Source: Chloroflexota bacterium (lineage in GTDB: Bacteria > Chloroflexota > Anaerolineae > Anaerolineales > Anaerolineaceae). From it: a DNA stretch of 64,000 nt. Both the position numbers and the translations under genes were made by a program. The notes beneath the pieces were generated by a model. That model was given only the letters and a program-made list of their open reading frames with translations. It ran no database searches and had not been told where the DNA came from. The stretch covers positions 62,001 through 126,000 of the forward strand of contig SLTK01000010.1 in NCBI GenBank assembly GCA_004347695.1, read 5' to 3'. This document shows, piece after piece, positions 1-4,922 of the stretch; within the stretch, counting starts at the first letter, position 1; each line of letters starts with the position of its first letter.

Positions 1-3000
1 ATCGATGACCTCGCTGGTGGTATCCAACCCGACGTCACTGCCGTCAAAGTACAGGCTGAACGTCCCGGCGGTATTGCTGCCAAACGAGGTTGCCGTGAAT
101 TGGACGATGTCATAGGGCTCGATCGCCAGCGTCCCCAGTGTGAACGCCGTCCGGAAGGTCATCAGCAACGTGGTGGCATCTACAACTGCGAAATCGTTCA
201 TGTCCTGCCCGCTGGTCGAAATGCCGACATCCGAAGCATCAAAAAACAGGCTCCAGGATGAGCCATCGTACTGGAGGATGTCCACGTCCTCAGCAGCCAC
301 GCCACCTGCCGTGCCGCCTCCGTCAAGTGAGATGTAAATCTGGCCGGCTGGGGCAGCGGATGTGGCCGTGGGGGTGAAGGTACTGGTAGGCAGCGAGGTT
401 TCCGTCGGGGTAAAAGTACTGGTGGGCAGTAAGGTTTCCGTTGGAGTGAAAGTGCTGGTCGGCGGGAGAGGCGTTTCCGTTACGGTCGCAGTGGAGGTAG
501 AGGTCGGTGATGGGCCAATGGTAGGAGTTGCGGTGTCAGTCGCGGTAGGCGTAGGCGTCGGGGTGACCGACGGTGCAAGGGTAGCGGTCGGGGTAGCGGT
601 ATTGGTCGGGGTTAAGGTCAGGGTGGGCGTGTTCGTTGGCGTCGCAGTAGGAACAGGTCCAAGCGCCAATAGATTGAAAGCATCCACATCATTTGCAGTT
701 TGCCCCCAGCTACTGCCATCAAAATACAAGGTTGGCGAGTAGGTACAGGCCGTCACGCTGCCTGTCGAACCAGGCGCGCAGATAAAAATATCCTCATCGG
801 CGCCGGCTGTTCCGGTGACGGCAAAGTCACCCAGAGTAGAGAGGTAGATATTGCCGGCAGCGTCCATATCCAGCGCATCGACATCTTCAGTACTGCTGTC
901 CGCCAGGCCGACATCGGACCCATCGAAGTACAAAGCCCAACTGCCGCTGGTCACATCCCCGAGCGTGACGGGAGTAAAAGCCAGAATATCCTCATCCGCC
1001 GAAGTTACACCCGGCACGGAGGCTGATCCGGTGGTGGAAACCAGTACGCGCCCATCGGGTAGGCGATCTACCGAGTCGATAGCCTCACTGTTAACATCCA
1101 GTCCAACATCCACCCCATTGAACACCATATTGAAAGTTCCGGCCGTGACGCTGCCGAGTGAGGTGGCGTTGAACTGCACCACATCCCGAGCGGTGACGGC
1201 AAATCCATTCAGCGTGGCTGACCCGGTAAAGGTCATCCAGATGGTACTGGCGTCGATGATGTCGAACGCAAAGAGATCCTGGCTGCCCACACCCACATCC
1301 GAGCCATCGAAGAATATGCTCCAGGTTTGTCCGTCGAAGCGCAGGATGTCTTCATCCGAGAAAGTGATCCCCCCGATGCTTCCATTGGATGCCATGGACA
1401 GGTAGAGCGGATTGCTGGACGGCGCCGGAGTGGCGGTGGGAGTAGCAGTTGCGGTAAAAGTGCTGGTGGCAGTTGGAGTATCCGTCGCTGTAGGTGACGG
1501 CCCAAAAGTCGCTGTAGCAGTAGCGGTTGGGGTATCAGTAGCAGTTGGGGTAGGCCCAAGCGTGCTGGTTGCCGTGGGGAGCGGGGTGTTCGTCGGCGTG
1601 GCCGGTGGGGGTGGGTTGATCGAAATTTCCCAGACTTTTCCGTCATTTTCCGTCGGGCTGGGGTTTGCACCGCTGTCGTTATCAATGCCGCGGCTGGCAA
1701 TGTAAATATTTTTGACGCTGGGGTTGGCCAGGCTTGGCAGGTACCCCACATCCGAACGGATGTTTTGCGCGCTGCCCATAAAGCTTACGTCGTAAGCGCG
1801 CAGCAAGGTTCCGCTGGTGGTAACTTCACCGATATACTGGTCGCTGCTGCTGGTACTGACGATGAACAGCGTTCCGGCTTCGGGGCAGTAACCAATCCCT
1901 TCCAGATCCTTGAAACCAAGCGCCAGGGTGTCGAAATGCGAAACCGGACCGTCATCTCCCCCGCCCAGCACCCCGTTGGCGCCAAGGCTAAACATGTACA
2001 CTTCGGCATCGGATCCGCCAGACATAAACAACATATTATTACCGTAGGCCAGGTCCTCAGGATCGCTGCCGGTGCCGCCGAACAGGGTCACCGTGCTGAC
2101 TTTGGTCACCGCGTCGTCTGCTGTACAGTAAACGTTGTCCGCGCCGAGGTTGATTTCGTAAATCTCTTTGCGGTCATCATCCGTCATAAAGATACGATTA
2201 TTGTTGGGATTGACCGCAATCCCGGTTGGCTCGCGTGAAAATGCCAGCGTGTTGCAGGTGCCAACCAGCGACCCGGCTAACGTCGAAAAATAGACGTTTG
2301 CGCCGGCGTAAACCGACATTTCATCCACTTCGCTGTCATCGATAATCAACCTGCCGGTCAAAGGAAAATAATCGACGCCGGAAGGATCAGGGCTGGAAGG
2401 ATTCCAGGCATTCTTTGACGTGTCAATCGTGCGCACATGAGTTGCCGGAAGCAGCGTCGTTCCGCTCGGCAGAGCCAGCGGCTGCAGCGTCAACTCCAAA
2501 ATTTGACCGCTCTTCAGCGTTGTTCCAGTTGCAGAAGTTTCACCGCCGTCGAGGACGAACAAGTATTGCGCAGACGGATCATCCGTCTGGTCTGCGCTGG
2601 GGGCAAAGGTCAAAGCCTGGATATTCGTCAGATCAAAATTAGCCAGATCCAGCGAGGCTGCTGCCTCGCCATCCAGTGTAAATTCAACTATTTTTTGCTC
2701 AACCGGGGCAGCCGCATACAAATGCCCGTTTTGCGGGTTAAAAGCAATCCCTCTCAAGGTTGAACTGCCCATTCCATTTAAATTTACTCGCTTAATTCGC
2801 CCGCCTTGTAAAGCAGAGGCTCCGTCGAAGTTCTGGTTGGCTGCCGGCGCAACCGATACGACCCGCGGTCCTTTAGCATCCAGGATATAAAGCCGCCCGG
2901 TGAGTGGGTCAAACGTGATGCCTGCCGGCTGCTGCACCCCGTAAGCCCGGGCGTCAAAGTTGACCGCGGCTCCAGCGGCCGTATCCGGGTAACCCCTTTG

Positions 3001-3396
3001 GTTCAATTTCACCTGGGTAAGCCGGGAAGATAAACTGTCAAGGAAGTAAAGGCCGCCGCTGCGTGGATCGAAGGCAGCGTTGAGGCTACCTGCGACGAGA
3101 GGCAAATTCATGCTGCCACCAGGCTGCTCGTAATTGACAAGCAAGCGCGCCTGTGCCAATTCAACCGTGTCGCCCCAAAGGATGAAACCATTGGCAGCCG
3201 GTAAGAATGCAAATCCGGCGGGGTGGAGCACTCCGGCTTTCCCGGTCGATATACTCTGGATATCGGCAAATTGGGCTGATCCAACTTCAGCCTGTACGGA
3301 CGGTGCGGCAGAAAGCAAATGAACTGCCAGAATTCCCGTAACAAGAAACAATCGAAAAATAACGGTAATCAATCGTGATCCTTTTCCCGACATCAT
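1..3396 (-). CDS. Large secreted multi-domain protein: signal peptide, N-terminal beta-propeller/NHL-like region, then Thr/Pro-rich linkers alternating with repeated '[17 protein letters not shown]' modules; truncated at the window start
   Basis: Manual reverse-complement translation is open from ATG at 3396 ([38 protein letters not shown]...) through position 1, about 1132 codons with no stop. RBS-like AAGGGAG lies upstream. Missing from the ORF track because it runs off the window. Confidence 0.9.
368..478 (-). repeat. Three imperfect tandem copies of a 36-39 bp unit encoding [12 protein letters not shown] in the Thr/Pro linker
   Basis: Direct reading: copies at 368-403, 404-439 and 440-478. 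Confidence 0.85.
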
Positions 3397-3409: not shown

Positions 3410-3451
3410 AAAAAAAAGCCGTCGATGGGCAATCCCATCAAACGGGCTTTT
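3410..3451 (-). terminator. Intrinsic terminator (riboswitch expression platform) upstream of the large secreted protein
   Basis: Minus strand AAAAGCCcGTttGATGGGattgCCCATCgACGGCTTTTTTTT. The 5' arm AAAAGCC is also the 3' strand of aptamer P1. Confidence 0.85.
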
Positions 3452-3525
3452 CGGCAATCAGGATAACCATTGCATTGGTGCCTGACTTTGCGTATTCCGA
3501 TCGATGAATACGCCTTTTCGAAGCC
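3445..3525 (-). promoter_or_regulatory. Candidate riboswitch aptamer, GEMM / cyclic-di-GMP-I-like three-way junction
   Basis: Minus strand: GGCTTCGAAAAGGC-GTATTC-ATCGATCG-GAATAC-GCAAAGTCAGG...CCTGATTGCCGAAAAGCC. It has P1 (GGCTT/AAGCC), hairpin GCGTATTC/GAATACGC, hairpin TCAGG/CCTGA, and GEMM-like AAAGGC, ACGCAAAG and TTGCCGAA blocks. Confidence 0.6.
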
Positions 3526-3983: not shown

Positions 3984-4922
3984 TTGCAGCCGTTTCGTAA
4001 AAATGTCGCGATTGCAATCGACGGGGGTGGTATTCGTGGGTTAATCGTCGCCCGCGCTTTGTCCATCCTTGAAATGGCGCTGGGGCAACCGCTGCACGCG
4101 ATTTCCCGTTTGAACGCCGGAACTTCGACCGGTGCGATCATCGCTGCCGGGATCGCTGCCGGAATGACAGCCAGTGAACTCGAAACCCTTTATCATTCCC
4201 TGGGGCCGAAAGTATTTCCGACCACGCTGCGCAAGTTAATTTTCCCGCTGACGCGTTATAAATATCCGGCTGAACCGTTCCATACTTTCCTCAAAGCCGC
4301 GTTTGGCGAAAAGCGCATGGGCGACTTTTGGATTGCAAAACCACCAACCGATTTGGTAATCACGCTCTACGACCTGGCCGAAAACCGCAACCTGTTCGTC
4401 AAGCCCTGGAAAGAAGAATACGTGGATTGGCCGCTGGTCCGCGCGGTTCAGGGGTCCTGTACCGTACCAACCTATTTTCCGGTGCTCGAAGGGCGTTATA
4501 TCGATGGCGGAGTTGGATCTTATGCCAACCCCAGCTACCTGGCAGCCTATGAATCCCGCTACATCCTGAAGTGGGATCCGGAGGAGACCACCCTGCTCTC
4601 ATTCGGCACCGGCCGCGAACCCTATTCCTTCGATGCAAAAAAAGCCGTCCACTTTTGGCCCTGGGATTGGCTGGCGCGTATGTTTGGGGTTTTTCTGCAT
4701 TCGGCCGAAGATCAGCAGGTAAACCTGGTCGAGACATTCTTCGAGAAGCTGGATTTTCGCCGCTACCAGGTGAACCTGCAGGAGCCGATCGAGATGGACG
4801 ACGTCGGCTACATCGACCGCCTGCTGGATTACGGGGATATCATGGGCAGAATGATTTTGGATGATGTTTATGACAAGGCCATGACCGTCAACCCTGAAAA
4901 ACCGGCCAGAAAAGTAGTCTGA
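3984..4922 (+). CDS. Patatin-like phospholipase family protein
   Basis: DGGGIRG oxyanion motif, GTSTG nucleophile elbow and DGG motif; TTG start preceded by GGAGGGGAGG. Confidence 0.9.
   Translation: MQPFRKNVAIAIDGGGIRGLIVARALSILEMALGQPLHAISRLNAGTSTGAIIAAGIAAGMTASELETLYHSLGPKVFPTTLRKLIFPLTRYKYPAEPFHTFLKAAFGEKRMGDFWIAKPPTDLVITLYDLAENRNLFVKPWKEEYVDWPLVRAVQGSCTVPTYFPVLEGRYIDGGVGSYANPSYLAAYESRYILKWDPEETTLLSFGTGREPYSFDAKKAVHFWPWDWLARMFGVFLHSAEDQQVNLVETFFEKLDFRRYQVNLQEPIEMDDVGYIDRLLDYGDIMGRMILDDVYDKAMTVNPEKPARKVV

Follow-up and report, generated by a model that had tools for sequence, protein, structure and literature searches.

We found that the minus-strand leader at positions 3527-3410 of the window (the whole 64,000-nucleotide stretch of Chloroflexota DNA that was analysed) is a clear relative of the c-di-GMP-I (GEMM-I) riboswitches, and a variant rather than a member of the family RF01051. 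It is probably a derived c-di-GMP-I riboswitch of the ON type, which uses transcription antitermination to allow expression of its gene when c-di-GMP is bound. That c-di-GMP is the ligand is suggested by the letters of the binding pocket, and that the ligand would turn the gene on is suggested by analogy with a riboswitch of the same layout.

The leader contains every motif quoted in the initial annotation, including the terminator ending in eight T. Below, positions in Vc2 numbering were assigned by alignment, all folds are predicted, and the genome data are from one genome per species. A search of the window for the combination AAAAGGC-ACGCAAAG-TGCCGAA gave a single match (0.00 expected). 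The sequence from 3527 to 3445 (-) folds as a three-way junction; the aptamer alone (91 nt) gave this fold at -28.5 kcal/mol (z = -2.36). With the terminator included, z was -4.07 and none of 200 shuffled sequences did as well. The 5' strand of P1, GGCUUCG (3519-3525), is followed by J1/2 AAAA and then G20 (at 3514), G21 and C22 (together 3512-3518); both segments are invariant in the four congeners that have the leader. P2 (3490-3513) is predicted to be a hairpin with a continuous 8-bp helix, GCGUAUUC/GAAUACGC, and an 8-nt loop. A47-A48-A49 of J2/3 (3487-3489, A47 at 3489) lead into P3 (3456-3487), which by fold and alignment has a lower helix, AGUCAGG/CCUGAUU, and an upper helix, ACCA/UGGU. 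C92, the position of the ligand-pairing cytosine in Vc2 (PMC4744006, PMC3764141), is at 3454. The 3' strand of P1, CGAAAAGCC (3445-3453), contains AAAAGCC, which is also part of the 5' arm of an intrinsic terminator (3410-3452) with a U8 tail (3417-3410). The P3 loop, AUGCAA (3470-3475), is the same in three of the congeners (G000, which holds the window, G002 and G006). A simple scan for a sigma-70 promoter for the leader found none.

Profile searches place the leader close to, and outside, the known family. A scan of the window with Rfam at gathering thresholds had no match. RF01051 was the sole family with any match to the leader, at a score (21.5 bits, E = 0.033) below its gathering score of 35. 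Two weak RF01051 matches elsewhere in the same genome were judged spurious when the sequence was read, and that first search missed the locus in the window. We built two further models, one (R1) from the four orthologues (G000, G002, G004 and G006) and one (R2) from 20 homologues of the same order with the four orthologues left out. R2 matched the leader at 47.2 bits (E = 9.8e-12) in a search of the window, and the leader was its only match in the whole 3.3 Mb genome (E = 5e-10), which upholds the homology claimed in the initial annotation. Within the family, R1 matched 21 of 147 genomes, and within the order, 30 of 399. It retrieved canonical homologues that pass or come near the thresholds of RF01051 or RF03167 (for example, one in G142 at 47.5 bits), and the R1 matches that we read were mostly canonical c-di-GMP-I aptamers. 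The search of the window with R2 is the stronger test of the two. We file the leader outside RF01051 because it scores below the threshold and lacks scaffold features of that family, as described below.

The leader is conserved in relatives. When we searched eight congeneric genomes at the DNA level, we recovered it from G002 (90% identity), G006 (83%) and G004 (69%), in each case at the syntenic position between the orthologous secreted-protein gene and a divergent patatin-like gene. P1, the junction and the lower part of P3 are the same as in G000 at 45 of 45 nucleotides in both G002 and G006, and P1 and the junction are unchanged in G004. Identity to G000 at four-fold sites is 84% for G002, 57% for G006 and 45% for G004, and the G006 protein is 84% identical to that of G000. 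Since P1 is invariant among the four orthologues, covariation in P1 is impossible within this group. The initial annotation had looked to covariation at the junction as a check on the riboswitch. Among 57 homologues (including the four), there were double changes in 23 of 26 pairs, among them all seven pairs of P1, and this covariation bears out the proposed junction. In this alignment, which was fitted to the structure model and thus favours the result, 92.9% of cells were paired and none of 500 shuffles was as good. A MAFFT alignment of 20 homologues had double changes in 16 of 26 pairs.

The ligand pocket is kept and the scaffold around it is altered. Ligand recognition is by G20, A47, A48 and C92 (PMC3764141), and the contacts G20, A47 and C92 are present in the window and in the three congeners. 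Like Vc2 and RF01051, the leader has a P1/P2/P3 junction with covarying P1 and P3, and it keeps G20, the pairs G21-C46 and C22-G45, C44, A47-A49, C92, C93 and A95. Among 53 homologues, G20 was found in 48, G21 in 51 and C22 in 48, and A47-A49 and C92 were each found in all 53. The leader differs from RF01051 in P2 and P3. G000, G002 and G006 have lost A23 (in 51 of 53 homologues) and A24, G42 and G83 (each in 52 of 53). The P2 internal loop, A23 A24 A25 / G42 R43 C44, is closed in these three species, in the window by G23-C44 (3511-3492) and U24-A43 (3510-3493). That is, the pair 23-44 is G-C and the pair 24-43 is U-A, U-G or C-G (a compensatory change), and the internal loop has therefore become a helix. 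C44 (in 53 of 53 homologues) is paired with G23 inside P2 in the predicted fold, and position 83, in P3 (3463 in the window), is U in all three species, so the inter-helix pair C44-G83 is not available. G004, with G at position 83, is intermediate; it has an AA/GC 2x2 loop and retains both C44 and G83. The P2 loop, AUCGAUCG, is neither GNRA (type I) nor GYRA (type II; PMC11218506), and the bulged A of P3 is absent. These results confirm, by alignment and by fold, the departures from consensus first read from the sequence (loss of the AAA/GAC internal loop and of the GNRA loop). The C44-G83 contact places P2 and P3 side by side (PMC3764141) and has been called universally conserved among GEMM riboswitches (PMC4744006). 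With this contact lost and P2 a continuous helix in the predicted folds, helix packing in the three closed-loop species is probably weaker or different. A contact between the P2 and P3 loops was considered by eye and not supported. A scan of 85,462 species with a pattern for the closed-loop form gave 19 matches, and only those on the G002 and G006 contigs are riboswitches. None of the remaining 17 folds into this junction, and the seven loci that we scanned with Rfam had no match.

The leader resembles c-di-GMP-I-GGC (RF03167), the best-scoring model for many relatives in the order, in having no tetraloop receptor. However, the RF03167 consensus has G at position 47 (GACGCGAA), whereas the leader and all homologues examined have A47, and we rejected this assignment because of that letter. 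Aptamers of the GEMM-Ib (cGAMP) type have A at position 20, and the leader has G20. Canonical riboswitches from the same order (for example, at locus L030, on contig C44 of G142) have a nearly identical P1 (GGCUUCG...CGAAAAGCC) and a terminator that reuses AAAGCC. The one at L030 differs from the leader in that it retains GGCAAA...GGGACGC and G83, and it scores 85.6 bits with R2.

Folding of the four orthologues indicated how the leader might switch. In all four, AAAAGCC is in P1 when the aptamer is folded alone and in the terminator when the full leader is folded, in agreement with the mutually exclusive pairing proposed in the initial annotation. In minimum-energy, ligand-free folds, the terminator state is favoured over the P1 state by 4.9 kcal/mol in each of the four species. 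Many canonical homologues also have a terminator that reuses the aptamer-closing P1 strand. An aptamer-closing strand that serves as the 5' arm of the terminator is the arrangement of an ON-type switch, and the leader shares this layout, in which formation of aptamer and terminator is exclusive, with the ON-type 3',3'-cGAMP riboswitch of Geobacter pilM (GEMM-Ib; PMC9262584). The genome that holds the window encodes nine GGDEF domains, and thus c-di-GMP signalling is likely there. In the mechanism that we propose, the P1-P2-P3 aptamer would be transcribed first. Without ligand, the downstream GGCUUUU would invade P1, capture AAAAGCC and build the terminator. With c-di-GMP bound in the P1/P2/P3 junction, through contacts to G20, A47 and C92, P1 would be held, AAAAGCC would be out of reach and the terminator could not form. 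The gene for a secreted beta-propeller protein would then be transcribed, probably together with that for the paralogue behind it.

It is conceivable that the scaffold and the switch are the same and that the ligand has changed, perhaps to another cyclic dinucleotide, with the changes in the loop and between the helices making a new pocket. Letters of the scaffold that are otherwise universally kept have been replaced consistently in three species, and the closed loop has a compensatory change at pair 24-43, as might be expected if the pocket had been remodelled. However, known shifts in specificity act at the contacts themselves (G20A for cGAMP, PMC6274999; G instead of A at position 47 of the RF03167 consensus), and the leader has G20, A47 and C92 unaltered in a genome with nine GGDEF domains. 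Because all three contacts are kept and the known switched subclasses alter one, the changed specificity put forward in the initial annotation is unsupported, and we think it quite improbable. We also consider it unlikely that the leader represents a sub-class, defined by loss of C44-G83 and of the P2 internal loop, that either binds a different ligand or binds c-di-GMP with a new packing of helices.

The same losses could mean that the aptamer is decaying and that the leader has become an attenuator that works without ligand, in which hairpins alone set how strong the terminator or how stable the RNA is. The leader no longer has the C44-G83 pair, the bulged A of P3, the internal loop or a GNRA-like loop, and R2 scores descend from G004 (62.2 bits) through G000 (47.2) and G002 (44.1) to G006 (38.3). 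Yet letters whose main role is in binding the ligand would be expected to go first, and J1/2 AAAAG, A47-A49 and C92 are identical in four species whose four-fold sites are 45-84% identical to G000; decay therefore seems rather unlikely. A junction formed by chance beside a terminator of the usual kind, or a leader that binds a protein, would account for a window without a gathering-level Rfam match. Against this are the genome-wide R2 match, synteny and conservation in the congeners, and an expression platform common to canonical relatives, and we regard it as very improbable that the leader is something other than a riboswitch.

The open reading frame downstream of the leader occupies 1-3396 (-) and includes the N-terminal 1132 of 1268 amino acids; the rest is outside the window. 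At that length, the product is not the giant protein first described. It has an N-terminal stretch that, by eye, resembles a signal peptide, and is thus a candidate secreted protein. Pfam found SdiA-regulated and NHL repeats, the NCBIfam search of the protein had no match, and there are Thr/Pro-rich linkers. Its predicted structure is all-beta (pLDDT 76.6), and the matches to this structure were two-propeller proteins, at modest TM-scores (near 0.27). From the repeats and the predicted structure, we describe the protein as beta-propeller-like rather than as an adhesin. Approximately 70 nt behind it is a gene for a 706-aa secreted paralogue (38% identity in the N-terminal part), which is probably co-transcribed. 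Upstream of the gene for a homologue in G114 (39% identity), such a leader was not visible. On the other side of the leader, the divergent gene at 3984-4922 (+) encodes a patatin-like phospholipase similar to the phospholipase effectors of CBASS; it scored 148 bits in PADLOC and 113.7 bits with NCBIfam NF041079, for which the cut-off is 200. Just outside the window, on contig C4 (L022:1-5377), genes that resemble those of phages, with one for a large serine recombinase, directly adjoin the sequence for the C-terminal portion of a ComM-like ATPase, a layout that looks, by eye, as if a prophage had entered the ATPase gene.

R2 had matches in 219 of the 399 genomes of the order, with up to 11 per genome, and many of the matches that we read precede proteins with signal-peptide-like starts. 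Four homologous aptamers have A20 (L059, L099, L116 and L044:1501-1596) and one has C20 (L106). It is possible, from this letter, that the A20 aptamers of the order are cGAMP sensors. At L044:1501-1746 (-), on contig C35 of G116, there are two aptamers in tandem, separated by approximately 55 nt. The first has G20 and the second, downstream of it, has A20, and a T-rich stretch that resembles a terminator follows each of them. This arrangement is possibly a two-ligand switch.

Our results indicate that the leader is a real, slightly unusual variant and not a new kind of switch. Among riboswitches for cyclic dinucleotides, this is the best-studied class, and the leader offers a test, made by nature, of what the class can do without: scaffold letters that have been called universal are replaced in three close species, a fourth species is half way, and the letters of the pocket are fixed. 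A lineage-specific riboswitch can thus score under the Rfam cut-off and remain a clear relative. In the order that contains the Anaerolineaceae, riboswitches of the c-di-GMP type are common, many of them before secreted proteins.
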